A program made the position numbers and the translations under genes. Shown here piece by piece: positions 5,282-28,888 of a stretch of DNA of 32,870 bases. Source of the stretch: a virus; IMG/VR virus record IMGVR_UViG_3300036817_000497, positions 1-32,870 of that record; one strand, given 5' to 3'. A model generated the notes under the pieces. It was not told the DNA's origin. It worked only from the letters and a program-made list of their open reading frames with translations, and searched no databases. Within the stretch, counting starts at the first letter, position 1. Each line of letters starts with the position of its first letter.

Positions 5282-7147
5282 TCAGTCAACCGGGATCGTG
5301 CAAACCTTGGGCGGCGGCAGGCAGCCGATCGCGCTCACGATGTTGATGCCCGGCTTCTCATTCTCTGAGCATGTGCCGATGCCGGGCTGTGGATAAGTTT
5401 CGACAAAAAGCCGCAGCTCGCGGATGGCCATCCGGCCCTGCCAGTTGATCAAGAGCTGAAAGCCTTTATCGACTGAGTGCTGGTAAGTGGTCTCGATGCC
5501 GCAGGTGCTCGAGCAGCCGTCTTCCTCGCTGGCCGCGCCCGTGATTTCTTCAGTCTTGATGGTTCGGGTTTGCGCACGGTAAGTGTTAAAAACGGTGTCG
5601 GTCGTGATCCCCTGATAGGTCCAAAGTGGGGTAACTTCGTTGCCGGGTAAACCCTCTTCGGCGACCACAAGCAGCTCGAGGATCCGCCGGTAATGGCCGC
5701 GAATCGGTGCGTAGTAAATCTGGATAGAAACGTCGCCCAAGATTTCGATCAGATCGAGTTCGGCATATTTGAAGCGCGAAAGTTCGCCTACTTGAGACAC
5801 CTCGAAAATCTTGGTTTCAAAGCTGCAGCTAATCGGCGTCTCAAGGGCCTGCATCAGCCGGTCGGTGCGCCGTCCGATAAAGTCTTCCCAGATCATGATG
5901 TGATTGCCGTTCTGGTCCGGCGCGCACGAGTAGGAAAGCTCAAAACACCGCGGAACATCCTGGACTTCGGCGCTCACGAATTGCACCGGAAAGGTGCCGG
6001 TCCAGATGCCACTCCAACAAGGATTAGCATCAGAGGAAATCATCGACTGCGGTGCACCATCCATGACCCAGATGTGCCGGTTCCAGCGCGAGCCGCTCGG
6101 CACCGAAAACAGGAGCCAGTTTTCAAACGCCACCGCAGCAATCCCGCTCCGATCAGGGCTCAAATTATCTTTGGAGCGAAGCATCTCCAGGTCACGAGGT
6201 GCCATTAGACTCGATTGGTAGGTCTGGAAGGCCTGATCGAGCCGGACCACGCCGACCTCGCTATAAGCCCAGGGAAGTCCGAATTGATTGACTACGCCGA
6301 AAGGCGAGACGCTTCCGTAGTCCGGCACAACGATTTGCTGGAAATTGGTCGTGTTTTGCCATGCCGTCCGATCCAAAATTCCGCTTTGGAGAGCCGTCAC
6401 CGTAAAAGGGGTAAAGACTAAGAGCTGGGTCGTAATCTGCGTCCCAGGCTGGGCTCGCATCTCTATCATGCCGGTGCACTCTTCGGGCAGCGCAAAGCCG
6501 TCAGCCTCCGCCAGATAAGTTCCTTCGGTGAAGGAGTTCGGATTTAAGAGGTCGCTAGCGTAGACTAAATTCTCGTAAACGACCCACAACCGGCTGCCGG
6601 AATAAGCCATGATCGTGCCGACCGGGCACTGGTAAAAGGGCGGCCCGCCTTGGTTGTGGCCTGCCTGGGCGGCTCGAGTTGAGGAGTTGGCAATGTAGAA
6701 CGCACTGGCCGTGTAACCATCCTGCATGAGCAGCATGTCTACCGGATCCTGAAGCACTGTTAGCGTCCCATTGAGGTTGCGCTGCGCGGCTTGGCGCGAC
6801 TGGCAAAAGTACACCTTCGGGCTGTCGTAATAGAAGCTGACATTGGGCACTTGCTGGTAAGTGGTGAAGGGGTAGATCGAGTAGTAAATCGCGCCATCGA
6901 CCGCCCAGACCAGTTGCTCCTTTTGCCTGAATGGCCGGTAGAGGCACATGCCTTGTGCCCGCTTTCCTGGAAGTCGAAACATGAGTCGCCGACCGGGCCG
7001 AGTCTGAACGATGCCAGCGCGGTTTACGAGGTTTTCGCCCCAATTGTACTGCCCTTGGGGCAGGCTGGTCGGGTCCATGGCGCTGTTAGCGCCAGCGATC
7101 CAATAGCGGTCCTGGACCGGTGTCCGAGCGTTATTCGGATAGGCCAT
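5282..7147 (-). CDS. Tail nozzle / DNA-stabilisation-like beta-propeller protein
   Basis: A 621-aa protein resembling the nozzle class of short-tailed phages (T7 gp12-like, P22 gp10-like), which sits below the portal and adaptor and closes the DNA channel. The start (WIAGANSAMDPTSLPQGQYNWGENLVNRAGIVQTRPGRRLMFRLPG) matches the usual opening of such proteins, where a mostly-turn leader gives the locations of data-like strands. Propeller-like repeats follow, e.g. QLVWAVDGAIYYS, SRLWVVYENLVYASDLLNP, TTQLLVFTPFTVTAL, ENWLLFSVPSG and RHIWVMDG. A C-terminal domain contains EDGCSSTCGIETTYQHSV. It lies at the head of the left structural block. Assignment rests on repeat pattern, length and context. 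Confidence 0.7.
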   Translation of the reverse strand: MAYPNNARTPVQDRYWIAGANSAMDPTSLPQGQYNWGENLVNRAGIVQTRPGRRLMFRLPGKRAQGMCLYRPFRQKEQLVWAVDGAIYYSIYPFTTYQQVPNVSFYYDSPKVYFCQSRQAAQRNLNGTLTVLQDPVDMLLMQDGYTASAFYIANSSTRAAQAGHNQGGPPFYQCPVGTIMAYSGSRLWVVYENLVYASDLLNPNSFTEGTYLAEADGFALPEECTGMIEMRAQPGTQITTQLLVFTPFTVTALQSGILDRTAWQNTTNFQQIVVPDYGSVSPFGVVNQFGLPWAYSEVGVVRLDQAFQTYQSSLMAPRDLEMLRSKDNLSPDRSGIAAVAFENWLLFSVPSGSRWNRHIWVMDGAPQSMISSDANPCWSGIWTGTFPVQFVSAEVQDVPRCFELSYSCAPDQNGNHIMIWEDFIGRRTDRLMQALETPISCSFETKIFEVSQVGELSRFKYAELDLIEILGDVSIQIYYAPIRGHYRRILELLVVAEEGLPGNEVTPLWTYQGITTDTVFNTYRAQTRTIKTEEITGAASEEDGCSSTCGIETTYQHSVDKGFQLLINWQGRMAIRELRLFVETYPQPGIGTCSENEKPGINIVSAIGCLPPPKVCTIPVD

Positions 7148-20403: not shown

Positions 20404-22821
20404 GTGGCGCAGGATTCGTATACCCCAAAAGCTGCCTATACGGCAGGGATTGGCCAATTCTCAAATCCCGAGCTGGACGAGCGCGGAAGGCCAAAAAATA
20501 AGCCGATCAATTCGGCTATGCAGGCCTACGCCCTGTACCTGCGCTTTAAGAAACAGAACCGGGCCAGAGCAAACCGGAACCGGCAGATCCAGGATGTCTA
20601 CAATGGCCGCCCGCCTTATGATCAGAAGGAGTTAGAAGATCAGTCTCAGGGCTGGCGCTCGAATGTTTCCACGCTGTTTTTAAGCTCAATCGTCGACCGG
20701 GTAACACCGCGCTTCTGCCAAGCGATTCACGACGTCAAGTACCTGACTCCTTCCGAGTTGCCGGACAGTTACGATGACTACGCCAACAAGAGTGAACTCT
20801 TCCAGGCCAAGACCACTGAACTGATCCGCAAGTGGCCAAGCTGGACCGATTTCGTGCAGCGCGTCGCCGGAGAAAATGTACTGCACGGCTATGTGGCCGC
20901 CTATAACATCGACGAACACAACTGGCGTCCCAGGACATGGCGGCAGGAAGAAACCTACTTCGACGAACAGTGCCCGCAAGATGTTCACCGACTGGACTGT
21001 TTTGTTGTGGAGCAGGACTTCTACATCCACGAACTCGTTAGCCTGCTCGAGGAAGAGGAAACAACCGAAAAAGCAGGGTTCGACGTCGAGAACGTCAAGA
21101 AGGCAATCGAGTACGCGATGCCCCCGCGGGAAGACTTACCCAGCGATCCGCGGCAGCTCTCCGACATGGCCCGCGAGGGCTCGCTTTACTTCAGCTGGCA
21201 CCGAGCTAGCAAGATGATCCAAACGGTACACGTTTTCGTTAGGAATTACACGGGGGGAATTGATCATTGGTGGGTAAATCGCAACTCGAGCATGGTCCAG
21301 CGCGAAGCCGCACCGCAGTCTAACGACGGCGACACCGGCGGCGGTGAAGAGCTTTTCTACGGCGAGGATGTGGCGGAGCTGATGGAGGACGTCATCACGC
21401 TCTTTAGTTTCCAGGCGGGCAATGACCGGCTCTTCGGTAGCCGTGGACTTGGGCGCATGCTGGTCAACATGGCAATCTCAGTTGAGCGCGAACGCAATTT
21501 GTACTTCGATCAGCAGTACATTGCCGGGCTCCTAATCGGCACCGCCGAAGAGAAAGACATTCCCTTTTTGCAGCCTCGGGTGATGTCACCATTTTTGATC
21601 CTGCCCAAGGGTTTCGAACTGATGGCCCAACAGCTCCAGTTCAACCCCGAGACCTTCAGCGGCCTCGACACCAAGCTCACCGGCATCTGCGAAATCATTG
21701 CCGGAACCTTCATTCCAGAGCAGATCCAAGCGAACGGTCAGAGCCAGCAAACTGCGACCGAGGCTACTATCGATGCGACTCGCGAAGAAGAGATTCGCCA
21801 GGGAATTCTCAACCGTTGGTGGACTCAATTCACGCATCTGATTATCCAGATGCAACGCCGGATTTACTCACCGCTCAACATCAAAGCCGCGCTGGCCTTT
21901 GTGGAAGCCCGCGATCAGGCCGCCTCGGCGGGCATAAAAATGGTCACCGAAACGATCATGGAGAAACTGCTCAAGATCGATCCGGCAGCCGATGAGAGTT
22001 ATACGACGCCCCCAGAGCTTGGACGCGCTGACGGCGATGCGGTTGAGATCATTGTGTCACTTCTGGACGCTGGCCTTGCGGCTGAAGAAATCCTGATTTT
22101 GGCCTACGCGCCCGCGGCTGAATACAACACGAACGTCGGCGCGGTCGAAGACAATAAGATGCTCCAGTTCGGCATGACCGTGCAGGGCAACCCATATTGG
22201 GACCAGGGTAAATTGAACTTTGAATGCGGTGCAGCTCAGATCGGCTATCGGCGAGCCAAAGACCTGTTTGTCGGTGATCCCTCGATGACCACAAATCTGG
22301 AGCAGCAGCGCCAGCAGTACTCGGAATGGACTGACATGACCCAAGGTCAAGCCATGCCGGTGAGCGATCGTGACGATCATGTCCAGCATTTAACGGCGCT
22401 CACCCAGAAGGTCCAGTCATCGCTCAATACGATGCGCGAAATGCCGCCCGAAGTGATCCCAGAGCAGGATCTCTCGTGCATGCAGTTGGGACTAATGCAT
22501 GGCGACGCGCACGTCCAGGCTGAGAACAAAAAGTCGACCGCGGCCACTGCCGGAGGCCGGGCCAAACGCACTAAAGAATTGCAGCCCTTGCAGCAACAGC
22601 TCACCCAAGCCGGACAAGTCTTCAGCCAGCTTCTGGAAGCCCGCTCCAAAGCCCAGGCCATGGCCGCAGCCGCGGGTAATGGCGCTATGCCGCCTTCTCA
22701 TACCGGCCCGGCTGCCGCGATGCCACCCCAGCCGCCAAACGCACGCCGCGGCATTGGAGGCATTCCCCAACTGCCGCCCCCTCAACCTAACCCTGCCGCT
22801 AACACAGGAGTTCCACAGTGA
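20404..22821 (+). CDS. Portal protein (805 aa)
   Basis: A large portal-type protein, forming the ring through which DNA enters and leaves the capsid. The N-terminal half has the portal entry pattern: QRVAGENVLHGYVAAYNID and, further on, ISVERERNLYFDQQYIAG, FLILPKGFELMAQQL and FSGLDTKLTGICEIIAGTFIPEQI, with the helix-plus-wing order typical of podovirus portals. TATEATIDATREEEIRQGIL resembles the inner tunnel helix. The C-terminal 100 residues are Pro/Ala/Gln-rich and perhaps disordered. The start is GTG 20404; its TGA overlaps the next gene's GTG as GTGA. No upstream large terminase is present in the window. Confidence 0.85.
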   Translation: MAQDSYTPKAAYTAGIGQFSNPELDERGRPKNKPINSAMQAYALYLRFKKQNRARANRNRQIQDVYNGRPPYDQKELEDQSQGWRSNVSTLFLSSIVDRVTPRFCQAIHDVKYLTPSELPDSYDDYANKSELFQAKTTELIRKWPSWTDFVQRVAGENVLHGYVAAYNIDEHNWRPRTWRQEETYFDEQCPQDVHRLDCFVVEQDFYIHELVSLLEEEETTEKAGFDVENVKKAIEYAMPPREDLPSDPRQLSDMAREGSLYFSWHRASKMIQTVHVFVRNYTGGIDHWWVNRNSSMVQREAAPQSNDGDTGGGEELFYGEDVAELMEDVITLFSFQAGNDRLFGSRGLGRMLVNMAISVERERNLYFDQQYIAGLLIGTAEEKDIPFLQPRVMSPFLILPKGFELMAQQLQFNPETFSGLDTKLTGICEIIAGTFIPEQIQANGQSQQTATEATIDATREEEIRQGILNRWWTQFTHLIIQMQRRIYSPLNIKAALAFVEARDQAASAGIKMVTETIMEKLLKIDPAADESYTTPPELGRADGDAVEIIVSLLDAGLAAEEILILAYAPAAEYNTNVGAVEDNKMLQFGMTVQGNPYWDQGKLNFECGAAQIGYRRAKDLFVGDPSMTTNLEQQRQQYSEWTDMTQGQAMPVSDRDDHVQHLTALTQKVQSSLNTMREMPPEVIPEQDLSCMQLGLMHGDAHVQAENKKSTAATAGGRAKRTKELQPLQQQLTQAGQVFSQLLEARSKAQAMAAAAGNGAMPPSHTGPAAAMPPQPPNARRGIGGIPQLPPPQPNPAANTGVPQ

Positions 22822-23092: not shown

Positions 23093-24454
23093 ATGGCAGA
23101 GGTTAGTGGAGTCACTTCAAGTGGGATCCCGCGCACGGTCGATCCCAAGTTCAGCATCACTACTCGCGATCAAGCCCTCGATCTGGAGAAGGCCTTCGAT
23201 AAAGCTTTCGGCTCTATTGGGGAAGAGCCCAAACCGGCGACTGAGCCGGAGCCTAAGCCGATCGAAACTGAGCCGGTAGAGACGCCTCCAGTCGAAACCC
23301 CAAAACCGGAGGAGACGCCCCCAGAGCCAACGCCTGAAAAAAAAGAGACGCCCCGAACTGAAGGGACGCCTCCGGCTGCTGCTGCTCCTGCTACCCATCC
23401 CGATGACGAAGTGGATGAGGAGCTTGATAAGCTACGACTTCATGAGGATTCGCGGCCCGAGACTGTCACGGTCTTTAAGCAGATCCGCGGGATGCTTAAA
23501 ACCGAGCGCAAGCTGGCTAAGGAGTTGCGAGAGCGAGTCGAAAAAGCCGAGACTGAATTGACGACCGCACGCTCCACAGTGCGTCCGGTGAACGACCCGG
23601 AGGTGCAAAAGGAACTCGAGACTTTGCGCTCCTTCCGCACTAAGCATCAGGTCTTTGATGATAGCGGCTACCAAATGCAATACGAGCAGCCGGTGCGTAC
23701 CCTTTTTGATGAGGTCGTAGCGGATGTTAAGAAGCTCGCGCCCGATCAGGCCCAGGCCGCAGAATGGGAAAAGCAAATGCGCGCTGTCGGTCCTGACCGG
23801 CTGGACCGCAATTACTGGAACGAAGGAGTCATTAATCAGTGCGCGGATCCCATCAATAAAGAGCGCTTAGTGCGCAAGATTTCGCTGCTGCTGGACGCTC
23901 AGGATAAGCGAAACGACTTCCGCCAAAAGATGGCCACCGAGCCGGAAGCGTTTGAACAATTCCGCACTCAGCAGGCTTCTGACTATTGGGGCACTTTCAC
24001 TTCTGAGGCCGAAGACGAAGCCAAAAAGATCATTCCCACTCTGGGCGATTGGGCTAGCCCTCGGGACATCGCTCTCGCGAAAACGGCTCAGGAACGAACC
24101 GCAGCCGAAGCCCATAACAAGGTCTACAAAGAGTTCGAAGACGTTTTCCAAAAAGCCCTTACTGACGCGGCAACCCAAGGCCCAAGAGGGATGACTCGAG
24201 TCGCGGTCCAGGCCGTCCTAGCCGAGAAATACAAACGCGAAAACGAGACTCTCTCTACCCAGCTAAAGAAAGCGCAGGCCGAGCTGAGAGTTGCTCAGGA
24301 CGAACTCAATAAGATTGCCGGTGCGCGCTCTACGGTCAACAAGTCCAGCGGTGCATCCGCAGCCGTTAAGAGCGGATCCGAGAAACCAAAGGCCAAATTA
24401 GGCCAGTCAGTAGAAGAAGCATTTGCCCAGCATAACTGGACTAGGACGTCGTGA
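23093..24454 (+). CDS. Scaffold-like protein (453 aa)
   Basis: A 453-aa acidic protein. Residues ~45-110 form a Pro/Glu/Thr-rich linker (PKPATEPEPKPIETEPVET onward); the rest is almost continuously helical and charged (LRERVEKAETELTTARS, NKERLVRKISLLLDAQDK, LSTQLKKAQAELRVAQDELNKI) with a basic C-terminus (KPKAKLGQSVEEAFAQHNW). Composition, size and position directly after the portal match scaffolding proteins that guide capsid assembly and bind the coat through a basic C-terminal tail. A capsid gene would be expected immediately downstream but is not there. Confidence 0.78.
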   Translation: MAEVSGVTSSGIPRTVDPKFSITTRDQALDLEKAFDKAFGSIGEEPKPATEPEPKPIETEPVETPPVETPKPEETPPEPTPEKKETPRTEGTPPAAAAPATHPDDEVDEELDKLRLHEDSRPETVTVFKQIRGMLKTERKLAKELRERVEKAETELTTARSTVRPVNDPEVQKELETLRSFRTKHQVFDDSGYQMQYEQPVRTLFDEVVADVKKLAPDQAQAAEWEKQMRAVGPDRLDRNYWNEGVINQCADPINKERLVRKISLLLDAQDKRNDFRQKMATEPEAFEQFRTQQASDYWGTFTSEAEDEAKKIIPTLGDWASPRDIALAKTAQERTAAEAHNKVYKEFEDVFQKALTDAATQGPRGMTRVAVQAVLAEKYKRENETLSTQLKKAQAELRVAQDELNKIAGARSTVNKSSGASAAVKSGSEKPKAKLGQSVEEAFAQHNWTRTS

Positions 24455-25209
24455 TCTCCGATCTAGTCGAGCAGCGCTTCTCGATGGAGTATCGGAAGCC
24501 GCACTATCCGGTGACCATCCTCGTGCCTTATCTGGACGGGATCCGCGGGCCCGTGGTCGCCACGTTGCTTTCCTACGCCAAACAATACGATGTTGGGTTT
24601 GAGTTAGTCGGTAACACTCTGCTAGCATCAGCGCGCAATGAACTGGCGGATCGCTTTCTTAAAAGCAAAGCCGAGTGGAGCTTCTGGCTCGATAGTGATG
24701 TCTTCATCCCCTTCGGAAATGCCGCCGCCTATAACGCCTATAGCGGGACCACCAAGGGCAAAGATTTTGCAAAGTATAGTACCCTCGATCGGTTGCTTAG
24801 CCATAATCTGCCTTTTGTTGGTGGAGTGTACCCTGGTCGTTTTAAGGGCGCTCCGTTGACCATCCAGCCTGATCTCGCACCCAGGAACAGTACTGATCGT
24901 AGAGTCTGCGAAGACTTACGCCTGGGCCAAAGTGCTGGAGGCATTTATGCGGTCGACTGGCTGGCCGCTGGGCTGATGTTGGTGCACAGACGGGTGTTTG
25001 AGCGCATCATGAAAGCCAAGCCTTGGAAGCCGCCTTTCCCCAGCGCCTTCTATCCCTTCTTTATCAACTCTGGCCCCAAGGGCGAGGATGTTTATTTCTG
25101 CGAGCTAGCGCGCTCGGTCGGCATCCAGCCCCACCTTGACACTGACGTCCGCGCCGGTCATATCGGGCTAGGAATTTGGACTTGCGAAGATAGCGAACCG
25201 GCGAAATAA
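24451..25209 (+). CDS. GT-A type glycosyltransferase (252 aa)
   Basis: A 252-aa glycosyltransferase-like protein. VTILVPYLDGIRGPVVATLL and LLASARNELADRFL form the nucleotide-sugar Rossmann-like start, and FWLDSDVFIP supplies the DxD-type metal/nucleotide motif (D81, D83). VGGVYPGRF and LMLVHRRVFERI follow, as in GT-A enzymes, and GEDVYFCELARSVG supplies an ED-type catalytic-region motif. The start is GTG 24451 (GTGA overlap with the scaffold). It probably adds a sugar to a virion or host-envelope target. Its place next to the FkbM gene, in the capsid slot, suggests glycan decoration of the particle. Confidence 0.85.
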   Translation: MISDLVEQRFSMEYRKPHYPVTILVPYLDGIRGPVVATLLSYAKQYDVGFELVGNTLLASARNELADRFLKSKAEWSFWLDSDVFIPFGNAAAYNAYSGTTKGKDFAKYSTLDRLLSHNLPFVGGVYPGRFKGAPLTIQPDLAPRNSTDRRVCEDLRLGQSAGGIYAVDWLAAGLMLVHRRVFERIMKAKPWKPPFPSAFYPFFINSGPKGEDVYFCELARSVGIQPHLDTDVRAGHIGLGIWTCEDSEPAK

Positions 25210-25210
25210 G

Positions 25211-25227
25211 AGGAGGAAATAATTATG
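25211..25227 (+). promoter_or_regulatory. Strong ribosome binding site for the FkbM gene
   Basis: A full AGGAGG (25211-25216) lies eight bases before ATG 25225. It is the strongest site in the plus-strand operon, where most genes rely on overlap coupling, so this enzyme may be made at a higher or independent level. Confidence 0.85.
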
Positions 25228-25962
25228 GCTGCTCCTCTAAGCCTTTTGAGCCCTACTTCGCCCTTGCCGCTCGGCGGGAAATTCATTTCCTACGCTCAGA
25301 ATTTTGAGGACGTCATTCTGTGGCGCGTGCTTAAAAACGTAGAGCGTGGCTTTTATGTTGATGTCGGCGCTGGCGACCCTTTCGAAGACTCGGTCACTTA
25401 TGCCTTCTATCAACGGGGCAATTGGCGAGGGATCAACATCGAGCCGGGCAGTGAGAAGTTCAGACTTTTAGTCGAGCACCGGCCCGATGACGTCAATCTG
25501 CAGACTGCGTGCGGACCGCAGATCGGCATGGCTCGATTCTACTTCTATCCTCGGGGCGTCGGCATCGTTGCCAATAAGCTCGAGGTGCGGGAAATCTTCG
25601 AGCATCACGGGCACACGGGCTTCCAACTAGCGACCAGCCAGACGACGCTAAATCACATCCTGAAAGAGTTTTCCCAGCCGGAGATTCATTTCCTCAAAAT
25701 TGACGTGGAAGGCTACGAAAAAGAGGTGCTCGAAGGCCTGGACCTCTGCAAGTACCGGCCCTGGATCCTGATAATAGAAGCGACCCGGCCCTGCACGCAG
25801 ATCAGAACCGACCATCAGTGGATCAACAGAGTCAGAGACCAGAGCTATCGCTACGCCTATTTCGACGGCCTGAATTGTTTCTACGTTTCAGAAGAGCACG
25901 CCGATTTGATAGAAACTCTCAGCGTACCGCCCAACGTCTTTGATAATTTCAGAAAGTTTTAG
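25225..25962 (+). CDS. FkbM-family methyltransferase (245 aa)
   Basis: A 245-aa SAM-dependent methyltransferase of the FkbM type. FISYAQNFEDVILWRVL leads into the SAM-binding FYVDVGAGDPFEDSVT, then GINIEPG (acidic ribose contact), and the diagnostic FLKIDVEGYEKEVLEGLDL near residue 160 with a later EATRP strand. FkbM enzymes O-methylate sugars or antibiotics; with the adjacent glycosyltransferase it may cap a virion or lipopolysaccharide sugar. It ends with TAG directly abutting the stop codon of the convergent adaptor gene. Confidence 0.9.
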   Translation: MAAPLSLLSPTSPLPLGGKFISYAQNFEDVILWRVLKNVERGFYVDVGAGDPFEDSVTYAFYQRGNWRGINIEPGSEKFRLLVEHRPDDVNLQTACGPQIGMARFYFYPRGVGIVANKLEVREIFEHHGHTGFQLATSQTTLNHILKEFSQPEIHFLKIDVEGYEKEVLEGLDLCKYRPWILIIEATRPCTQIRTDHQWINRVRDQSYRYAYFDGLNCFYVSEEHADLIETLSVPPNVFDNFRKF

Positions 25963-28005
25963 CTAAAAAATCTGCGGAAACGCATTTCCGTAGGTCGACT
26001 GAGGCCACTGCAGCGTGATCGTTGCGTGAGGATTGCGAGCGCTCCATTCGTCATCCAGTAGCTGCACGGCCATTTGCAGTTGGTCCTGGGCAATCGTGAC
26101 CGGCGCGGTCGGTTGGAAGGGAGAGCCGGTCGTCCCTGATCCGCCGGTGCGCATGGTCGCGATCGCCGTCATCGCTAGAATCACCGCTTCCCGGCTCCGG
26201 CAATGAATCGGATCAGTCAAATTCTCGAACCGGGCCCAGTTTTTCTTGTAGCGCAGGCGCACGCGTTTACACATCGTTCCCACCCGAAAGATTCGATACA
26301 TGGGTTCGGTGTCCTGGGGCCAATACATTGAAATAAATTCGACTTGTCCCGGTGGATAGGTCGGATTTTGGCCTGGAATTTGCGGGGCCAGAGCGTTGGC
26401 TGCGAACAGGTTGATGAATCCGTAGGTCGGATCTTTTGAGACACGCTCGACTCGAGTAAAAACGTAGGGAGCCGGTTTGAATCTATTGAAACACGGGATT
26501 GAGACGCCCCATTGGCCGCTCGAATTGACTACCGGCAGATCGCCGTTGAAGCCGTACACGGTGACCATAGCGCCGTTGTCCTGGGCCAGCTCCGGCATCG
26601 CGCAGAGCTGACAGGGGCCTTTAAGCCGGAAGGCGATCGGAGTCGACCCTACCTCTTCCCAGCCTTTGCCCAGCCGGTTGGTACCATTGACCGTATTCTC
26701 GCCGCAGAAGCCCGTGCCGTAAGGGCCATAAGGCGTGTAGCCAGGACGCGGCTGTTGAGCCAACTGCGGCCATGCCACCCAGTTTTCTGGATCCTGCTTC
26801 AAGTCTCCGAACTCGCCGCCGCCCGCATAAGAAAATTCGAACCAAGGCGACTTATACGAGCCAATGGTCCGATTGATGTTGATCGCCAAAATCGTGTCGA
26901 CGTACCGCGGAAGGGTCACGTAATAGTCGCTATCGGCTCTGAGAGTAACTACTCCCATTAATCCATCCCAATACTGACACTTGTTGTACAGCACCTCCAT
27001 GGTCGAAGTGATTCGGTCCATGATTCGCTGCTTACCGATAAATCCAAAGATCCGGCAGGCCTCATCATAAATGTCGGCCACGATAACTTCGTCACGCTGG
27101 CCGATGGTGAGGTTGAGGGAGCTGGCGACCTCGCTAGCAGCAGCAGCTGCGCTGTACTGATTCCTTGCGGCCTGCTCTTCATTAAGATAGGTAATCGCTT
27201 GCTGCTCAGCTTGCGTAGCAAGGTCATAGTGCACTTCGTCGTAGTACTTAATGGCTTGACACTGCAGAATGACCGCTTGCGCACTATTGAGCGGGATTAC
27301 ATCGAGTAATGACGCGATTTTGATTGTTTTACGCCGTGCCAGCATGCGGACCGACACGGCGCGTTGACTCAGCTTTATGCAAGAAAACTCCGGCAGAGTA
27401 ACGTTTGGATAATAGTGGGCCAGGACGTAATTGCCAGCACTGAGCGTCACAGTGCCAATTGTGGGCGGTTTTACCACCTCGACCACTCCATATGCGTTGG
27501 CCGTGCTCGGCGTCGGCGTGGTGCCGCTGGGCGCGATTGGCAGGTCAATTATGTAGTCAGTCCGGCTCCGGCCCCGCACCGTCATGTGCAGGTTTAAATT
27601 GACGTCCGCCTCAGAATCGCTCGACGCCGTTAAAAGAGCACCGCCTCGAGGCCACCGGCGCTGGATCGGGCTCGTCAGGCGGTCCTGCCATTGCCAACCG
27701 GCCTCGATGTCATTCGAGCCGGGCCCGTTCATCGTGAATTCGTACAGGCTCGAATGGCTGAAAGCCGGATTGCCGTTCAGGTTGACCTTGATCGGTTTTT
27801 CAATCTGATAGGGGAGGAAAACGTAGTAATCCTGCTGGGTCGGCAAGTCCACATAGACCTGCAGTGGATCAAAGGTGACGCTGGTGGCGCAGGCCTTGCG
27901 TGCCAGCGTTTCTACCGCTCGAGTCAAGACGCTGAAAAGATAAGGCTGGTCACAGCGCCCAGTGACCTGTTGCACTTCGCCGATGATGTCTTGAACAACG
28001 ATCAC
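25963..28005 (-). CDS. Duplicated head-tail adaptor-like protein (680 aa)
   Basis: A 680-aa protein made of two homologous units, residues ~1-305 and ~306-680. Each starts with an IV-x-DI helix (VVQDIIGEVQQVTGRCDQPYL; VIVADIYDEACRIFGFIG), has a DYYVxLP strand (QQDYYVFLPYQIEKP; DSDYYVTLPRYVDTI), then an F/FEF-type Gly/Asn stretch (SSLYEFTMNG; SPWFEFSYAGG). Each ends with a basic segment and AQAVILQCQAIKYY or REAVILAMTAIATM helix. The module resembles the tail-tubular/adaptor (T7 gp11-like) proteins that join the portal to the nozzle. It is translated by ATGA coupling from the charged protein. Confidence 0.75.
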   Translation of the reverse strand: MIVVQDIIGEVQQVTGRCDQPYLFSVLTRAVETLARKACATSVTFDPLQVYVDLPTQQDYYVFLPYQIEKPIKVNLNGNPAFSHSSLYEFTMNGPGSNDIEAGWQWQDRLTSPIQRRWPRGGALLTASSDSEADVNLNLHMTVRGRSRTDYIIDLPIAPSGTTPTPSTANAYGVVEVVKPPTIGTVTLSAGNYVLAHYYPNVTLPEFSCIKLSQRAVSVRMLARRKTIKIASLLDVIPLNSAQAVILQCQAIKYYDEVHYDLATQAEQQAITYLNEEQAARNQYSAAAAASEVASSLNLTIGQRDEVIVADIYDEACRIFGFIGKQRIMDRITSTMEVLYNKCQYWDGLMGVVTLRADSDYYVTLPRYVDTILAININRTIGSYKSPWFEFSYAGGGEFGDLKQDPENWVAWPQLAQQPRPGYTPYGPYGTGFCGENTVNGTNRLGKGWEEVGSTPIAFRLKGPCQLCAMPELAQDNGAMVTVYGFNGDLPVVNSSGQWGVSIPCFNRFKPAPYVFTRVERVSKDPTYGFINLFAANALAPQIPGQNPTYPPGQVEFISMYWPQDTEPMYRIFRVGTMCKRVRLRYKKNWARFENLTDPIHCRSREAVILAMTAIATMRTGGSGTTGSPFQPTAPVTIAQDQLQMAVQLLDDEWSARNPHATITLQWPQSTYGNAFPQIF
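25965..25990 (-). terminator. Intrinsic terminator within the adaptor gene's last codons
   Basis: Minus strand: CGGAAA-TGCG-TTTCCG (25975-25990), a 6-bp stem with a 4-base loop, then CAGA and TTTTTT (25965-25970). It covers the last codons of the 680-aa gene and leads into its TAG. The stem is short, so efficiency is uncertain, but the T-tract is good. Confidence 0.6.
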
Positions 28006-28361
28006 TTCGCTTCTTTCTTGGCAGCCTTGGCTTTGTCCTCCTCATCGTACTTTTTAAACGCCTCGTCGACCTGCTCGCGGCTGGACTTTTTCTGCTTCAC
28101 TTCCTTGCCTTTTTCGTGCGGCTCAAAGTGGTGCACGTCCAAGTCGTAAGAATGCTCCTCCTTGCCGCCGCGGTCTTCGGTCGAATGGCTGCGGCACTTG
28201 CCTTTGATGTGTCCCTCAAACTCTTTGCCGCCCTCCATGCCGTCTATCGACTTGGGCAGCCCGCGAAGAAACAGGCTCGGCGCGATCTCGCTATCTTTGT
28301 CGCTCCCTTCCGGCCCCATTAAGGCCTTATCAAGTGATTCTCTTTTGCGTGTGACTTTCAT
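28002..28361 (-). CDS. Charged head-associated protein (119 aa), capsid-staple-like candidate
   Basis: A 119-aa protein with a basic start (KVTRKRESLDKALMGP), a beta-rich centre (FEGHIKGKCRSHSTEDRGGKEEHSYDLDVHHFEPHEK) and a Lys/Glu-rich helix at the end. The centre, with an x-V-x-S-x-S-x-x-x-x-GG-x-x-x-S-x-x-L-x-I plan, recalls small phage head proteins (capsid-staple or decoration type), but this is a weak match from memory. It couples by ATGA to the adaptor gene and by ATGA to the lysozyme gene. Confidence 0.5.
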   Translation of the reverse strand: MKVTRKRESLDKALMGPEGSDKDSEIAPSLFLRGLPKSIDGMEGGKEFEGHIKGKCRSHSTEDRGGKEEHSYDLDVHHFEPHEKGKEVKQKKSSREQVDEAFKKYDEEDKAKAAKKEAK

Positions 28362-28888
28362 GCGATGCGACTGGTGTCAGTGCCTCCAGGGATAATTGTA
28401 CTCGCTAGCTGGGCTAGCGCGCTATTGCGATTTAGCCAGCCCTGTAGAAATTTTGGCCGGTTCAGTGCCCGGTAAAAAGCATTGCCTTTCTCGATCGTGG
28501 CCAGCGCCAAGCCCAGCGCATCTGTGGCCTTGATTGCCGCCATCGTTTTTGGTCCGATGATGCCGTCCGCGGTAACACCCAGGGCTTGTTGAATCAGCTT
28601 GGCCGCTCGCGATTTGCCGGTGTTGACGCAGTAGTTGAAATAGACCTGCCTTAAGGGCTCGGGAAAGTTTCCGGCTCCCTCGCTAGTCCACTCGGTCCAA
28701 TAGATGTACTTGGCCTGCGACTCTGTCAGATTACGGATGTTAACATCGGGATGGGATCTTTGATCTATCCCATACTTGGTGGCTCCGCCGGGATCATCGG
28801 GATCGTCTTCATAGTCCACTCCCTCCCATTCTTTCAAGAACTCGAAGAACGCATTAAAATCGGACGTATAGTTAGGTGCAACGCTCAT
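28358..28888 (-). CDS. GH108 lysozyme (endolysin), 176 aa
   Basis: A 176-aa peptidoglycan hydrolase. The GH108 start EGVDYEDDPDDPGGATKYG (22-40) holds the catalytic Glu22 and the conserved DPGGxTxxGI; the domain continues with a DLTxSQAKYIYW-type helix and VNTGKSRAAKLIQQALG. A peptidoglycan-binding motif (GVTADGIIGPKTMAAI) follows at about 106-121. It has no signal peptide, so release to the cell wall needs a holin. ATG 28888 has AAGGA seven bases upstream. The next gene upstream encodes a plausible holin. Family clear. Confidence 0.92.
   Translation of the reverse strand: MSVAPNYTSDFNAFFEFLKEWEGVDYEDDPDDPGGATKYGIDQRSHPDVNIRNLTESQAKYIYWTEWTSEGAGNFPEPLRQVYFNYCVNTGKSRAAKLIQQALGVTADGIIGPKTMAAIKATDALGLALATIEKGNAFYRALNRPKFLQGWLNRNSALAQLASTIIPGGTDTSRIA

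Follow-up and report, generated by a model that had tools for sequence, protein, structure and literature searches.

A predicted head-to-tail adaptor carrying two fused homologous units in a family of uncultivated bacterial viruses

The minus strand of the window (the whole 32 870-nucleotide stretch of viral DNA that was analysed, IMG/VR record IMGVR_UViG_3300036817_000497) carries a gene for a single 680 amino acid chain (25963..28005) in which two homologous units follow one another. For each unit the podophage adaptor fold is predicted, a helix bundle plus a beta-sandwich, and the product is very probably the adaptor between head and tail of a short-tailed phage, made as a tandem dimer. The adaptor fold itself is known; what is new here is that two copies of it, as modelled, are fused in each chain throughout a family of uncultivated bacterial viruses. 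Neither the solved structures nor the cultured phages yielded a tandem adaptor, and no description of one was found in the literature searched.

The open reading frame has no internal stop. It begins with a GTG that overlaps the stop of the preceding 119-codon gene by four bases (GTGA). Unit A corresponds to residues 1–303 (27097..28005, minus strand) and unit B to residues 304–680 (25966..27096, minus strand). An adaptor-like protein duplicated end to end had been proposed in a preliminary description made from the letters of the window, and comparison of the halves bears the duplication out. BLASTP with the window protein alone aligned them with E = 1e-9 and 21% identity, and HHalign with 12 family members gave a score of 174 (E = 1e-24), against a maximum of 23.7 among 100 controls in which the columns of half 2 were shuffled. 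When 20 family members were used, the profile comparison of the halves reached E = 1.1e-32. The aligned region pairs residues 2–285 with residues 307–661, nearly the full length of both halves, and 33 positions are conserved across both units, including positions around the hairpin and in the last helices.

The shared motifs listed in the preliminary description are all there: IVVQDI in unit A and VIVADI in unit B, DYYVFLP and DYYVTLP, a Gly/Asn hairpin (NLNGNP and NINRTI) and a basic segment (RMLARRKT and RLRYKKNW). The AxAVIL helix is likewise present in both units (AQAVILQCQAI and REAVILAMTAI); its description as terminal has to be corrected, since a second helix follows it (residues 260–290 and 634–657) and then a short segment, LNLTI in unit A and ITLQW in unit B. 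This last segment, examined as a C-terminal embracing helix or loop, is conserved in both units and lies where the structural models are poor. The junction between the units (residues 291–306, about VASSLNLTIGQRDEVI; 27088..27135, minus strand) closes unit A and enters helix 1 of unit B. Its residues N298, L299, I301 and R304 are invariant or nearly so among relatives, and its counterpart in the second unit is the ITLQW near residue 665. The halves differ in length mainly because of two loop insertions in unit B, one at residues 380–447 (26665..26868, minus strand), modelled with low confidence and largely absent from compact relatives, and one at residues 539–556 (26338..26391, minus strand); compact relatives lack both.

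The family was detected in 29 IMG/VR contigs, of which two (L013 and L085) cut the gene at the contig end. All 27 remaining contigs, five of which encode an identical protein (L020, L021, L028, L030 and L031), have both units in one chain, i.e. they do not carry several separate ring genes as crAss001 does. The most divergent member (L082, 868 amino acids, 35% identical in the alignment) has kept both units. An assembly or gene-fusion artefact of one contig, or a chance similarity, is ruled out by the recurrence of the same two-unit open reading frame in these 27 contigs, down to 35% identity, together with the shuffled controls; the divergence of the units to 21–29% identity and their segregation into two clean clades (see below) also argue against an artefact, whose probability we regard as negligible. 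One adaptor reading frame, in a 132-kb relative (L029:7989-10001), has no ATG, GTG or TTG where its relatives start, which may reflect a rare start codon or a sequencing error.

Within each of ten compact relatives the two halves match one another at about E = 1e-21 to 1e-31, with 25–29% identity. A maximum-likelihood tree of 40 half-sequences separates the 20 A units cleanly from the 20 B units (support 100/99); the split recurs in all 200 bootstrap trees and the branching order is broadly alike inside both clades. Because A and B units form separate clades, a single duplication and fusion must have preceded the whole family. The halves have since diverged, and no exchange between them is detectable. 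Relatives with separate halves, which the preliminary description had suggested looking for, were sought in IMG/VR with whole-protein, half-protein and divergent queries, and no single-unit relative was found, with the qualification that pattern-seeded scans of this kind miss distant relatives.

Purifying selection acts on each of the halves (pN/pS 0.20–0.33), and half B tends to evolve faster (pN 0.194–0.247 versus 0.141–0.197 for half A). This tendency, together with the long insertions of half B, would agree with a division of labour in which one unit forms the adaptor ring and the other, while keeping the fold, has turned into another part, for example a dock for fibres, a domain that binds the nozzle or a decoration. 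The L082 protein could be read in the same way, as its unit A bears an inserted chitobiase-like domain (CHB_HEX_C_1, PF13290, E = 2.8e-9), located in the loop whose equivalent in unit B of the window protein holds the second insertion (residues 539–556). However, the 33 positions conserved in both units and the purifying selection acting on both suggest that the two make similar contacts, and we consider such a division of labour improbable. A stretch resembling the inserted domain was noticed by eye in the nozzle-like protein encoded next to the L082 adaptor (adaptor L082:1327-3933, nozzle-like L082:3933-6620), where Pfam gives no hit.

The assignment to adaptors comes from predicted structure. 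Searches of Pfam and PHROGs with the adaptor gave no match above noise, PDB sequences searched with full and half profiles gave nothing, no relative was found among prophages of 84 980 bacterial and archaeal genomes, and cultured phages yielded no relative of the adaptor or of the nozzle-like, portal-like or capsid-like proteins described below. A full-length model of the window protein (AlphaFold2, 12 sequences, pLDDT 64.7, pTM 0.34) has the same order of secondary-structure elements in both halves. Its first half (model residues 1–300) was matched by VIA-align to 13 adaptor or ring entries with Z scores of 6.7–10.4, the best being GP4 (8jov_2, Z 10.4, 171 aligned residues, 4.7 A), followed by KHP30 (10.3), Pa223 (10.3), SU10 (10.2), cyanophage A4 (10.0) and VP1 (9.2) and, at lower scores, by the crAss001 rings (7.5–7.9), DEV (7.8) and PhiM1 (6.7). 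Because the full-length model tested half 2 poorly, the compact second half of relative L033 was folded alone (AlphaFold2, 23 sequences of second halves only, pLDDT 68.7, pTM 0.47); the second half of the window protein is 40% identical to it. Only adaptor or ring chains of podophages, largely the set matched by the first half, occupy its best 13 rows (Z 5.7–8.0 over 141–171 residues), the next, unrelated row has Z 5.0 over 52 residues, and later rows are mainly unrelated and cover about 50 residues; Foldseek probabilities for this half are 0.99 for Pa223 and 0.98 for SU10. According to the tool, Z scores of this size often occur with models that have no clear match, and they would be unconvincing alone; the match of half 2 carries weight because the whole adaptor set ranks at the top and because half 2 is homologous in sequence to half 1. 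The rmsds between models and structures are mostly 5–9 A, both models being of middling confidence, and the fold-level matches share only about 6–14% identity with the models. Different folds for the two halves were the outcome that the preliminary description had named as contradicting a duplication of the adaptor; this outcome was not seen, as two separate predictions, one built from second halves only, both rank podophage adaptors first. A fold search of BFVD also returned, among its confident matches, several uncharacterised viral proteins of 455–581 residues, which might be further cases, so that the tandem architecture may extend beyond this clade.

In short-tailed phages such as T7 the genes are ordered terminase or portal, scaffold, capsid, adaptor and nozzle. 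The order in the relatives, reconstructed by clustering of neighbouring genes and from a 74-kb relative, would fit the adaptor role: (i) terminase large subunit, an unnamed gene, a portal-like gene (826 amino acids) and a scaffold-like gene, (ii) glycosyltransferase-like and FkbM-type genes, (iii) a capsid-like gene (413 amino acids), a small gene, the tandem adaptor and a nozzle-like gene (615 amino acids), the last being the next gene after the adaptor in most relatives, and (iv) a fibre gene, an ejection-like gene (542 amino acids), YcaO, TfuA and genes for large proteins of 532 and 824 amino acids, with one for 2606 amino acids at the other end of the contig. The names portal, capsid and nozzle were given from order, size and the look of the sequences, these proteins being unrecognised by any library; the nozzle-like family has no significant match in PHROGs or PDB sequences. 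The terminase large subunit of one relative matches phrog_2 (E = 6e-7); the Terminase_6N profile matched none of eight records, in one of which PHROGs recognises the terminase large subunit. In relative G003 the portal-like homologue is located two genes after the terminase large subunit.

The window contains the same kinds of gene in another arrangement. The candidate portal (805 amino acids; 20404..22821, plus strand), which has no profile match, was named from order and size; the candidate scaffold (453 amino acids; 23093..24454, plus strand) from its position, its acidic composition and a coiled-coil-like appearance by eye; and the candidate nozzle, similar in kind to T7 gp12 (621 amino acids; 5282..7147, minus strand), from position. 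The capsid-like gene is not within the window. Directly upstream of the adaptor is the gene for a small charged protein of 119 amino acids (28002..28361, minus strand), a spot likewise occupied by a small gene in relatives of the clade. The second gene upstream of the adaptor, still within the structural region, is that of a GH108-type endolysin (28358-28888; PF05838, E = 1.4e-13).

Next to the scaffold-like gene of the window come two genes, one glycosyltransferase-like (24451-25209) and one for an FkbM-type methyltransferase (25225-25962; PF05050, E = 6e-28), and glycosyltransferase-like and FkbM-type genes precede the capsid-like gene in relatives (L033:2267-3646, L033:3643-5211 and L033:5333-6070). 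A YcaO gene (PF02624, E = 1.9e-57) adjoins a TfuA gene (PF07812, E = 5.7e-28) in relative G003 (L092:9786-11006 and L092:10994-12340), with a further locus at L033:15015-16256. This pair, known from peptide-backbone thioamidation, sits inside the structural cluster after the ejection-like gene, and about ten relatives have genes of the same clusters; the two enzymes might modify a virion protein. The 2606-residue protein encoded at one end of the 74-kb relative (L089:32-7852) has a DUF7178 match near its C-terminus and is possibly a giant virion protein that is ejected.

Each solved adaptor chain matched by the models consists of one unit, of 185–243 residues. This agrees with the preliminary description, which took known adaptors to be single-unit, and with the crAss001 study, where the other podoviruses are noted to have been seen with only one ring, made of one protein (PMC10172136). 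Since the chain found here has two fused copies and every solved match has one, the connector ring must be built differently. The preliminary description had foreseen, for a fused dimer, either half as many chains or an added layer, and these are the right alternatives to weigh. In T7 a 12-fold adaptor ring holds the clip of the portal and continues the DNA channel into a nozzle of 6-fold symmetry (PMC6702177). Granted a tandem adaptor, we judge by analogy that a single ring of six chains is probable. Once the DNA is packaged, the tandem protein would form a ring that grips the portal on one side and takes up the nozzle on the other; in it six chains would alternate their A and B units around the circle. 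The pseudo-12-fold symmetry of such a ring would fit the 12-fold portal above, and each chain would have one counterpart in the six-fold nozzle below. Two kinds of neighbour, which other phages obtain by bending identical subunits, would here be fixed in the sequence. In SU10, the fibre dock and the embracing loop are not alike in adjacent adaptors, and each nozzle platform is in contact with two adaptors (PMC9509320); one tandem chain could supply both of the neighbours that SU10 makes from differing adaptors. We lean, somewhat more cautiously, towards the fuller proposal that in this clade of uncultivated short-tailed phages the connector consists of six tandem chains forming a pseudo-dodecamer, with the fused A and B units encoding the step from 12 to six between portal and nozzle.

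The positions conserved in both units suit equivalent places in one ring, and are compatible with two similar rings too. In the rival arrangement twelve chains would be stacked in layers, A units forming one dodecameric ring and B units a second, so that the tail barrel is longer and each C-terminal arm of a unit leads without a break into the adjoining layer's unit. Such a fixed vertical link would suit the conserved junction, which has few residues to spare. There is direct precedent in crAss001, whose barrel has five stacked dodecameric rings formed from four paralogous ring proteins of adaptor fold (PMC10172136). These paralogues are mostly 15–19% identical, a divergence close to that between units A and B (21% identity for the window protein, 25–29% for compact relatives), and each half has the crAss ring chains 7qoj and 7qog among its structural matches. 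Yet podophage adaptors that form one ring, and not crAss proteins, match each half best (the difference is small for half 2), the crassvirus rings are encoded by separate genes, and stacking would leave the mismatch between 12 and six at the nozzle unsolved; none of these points is decisive. We regard stacked layers as rather unlikely, less so than a division of labour between the units, and prefer the single ring of six chains.

How a 12-fold portal is joined to a 6-fold nozzle is a general matter in short-tailed phages, and the known ones use identical adaptor subunits in slightly different shapes. A tandem adaptor with the two positions written as separate sequences would be a natural system in which the residues facing portal, nozzle and fibres could be read for each position. 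Stacked units, on the other hand, would make the family a second case, after the crassviruses, of a tail barrel with several rings, reached by another route. With either arrangement the protein marks a phage lineage without a cultured relative detectable by sequence.

Among known systems, the podophage adaptors (T7 gp11, SU10 gp11, GP4, KHP30, Pa223, cyanophage A4 and VP1) resemble the tandem protein in the predicted fold of each half and apparently in the place of the gene, which in relatives lies between the putative capsid and nozzle genes; they differ in having one unit per matched chain instead of two units in 680 residues, and share no detectable sequence similarity with it. The crAss001 ring proteins R1–R5 (gp43, gp40, gp35 and gp34) are likewise paralogous copies with the adaptor fold and are comparably far apart, but there the copies come from separate genes and form stacked dodecameric rings, whereas here they are fused in one chain. 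The T5 tail tube protein, in which a tandem duplication leads to pseudo-hexameric trimers (PMC9022992), offers an accepted precedent for the proposed ring, as an internally duplicated ring subunit that builds a pseudo-symmetric ring with half as many chains; it is a different protein, from the tail tube of a long-tailed phage, and the parallel is one of analogy only.
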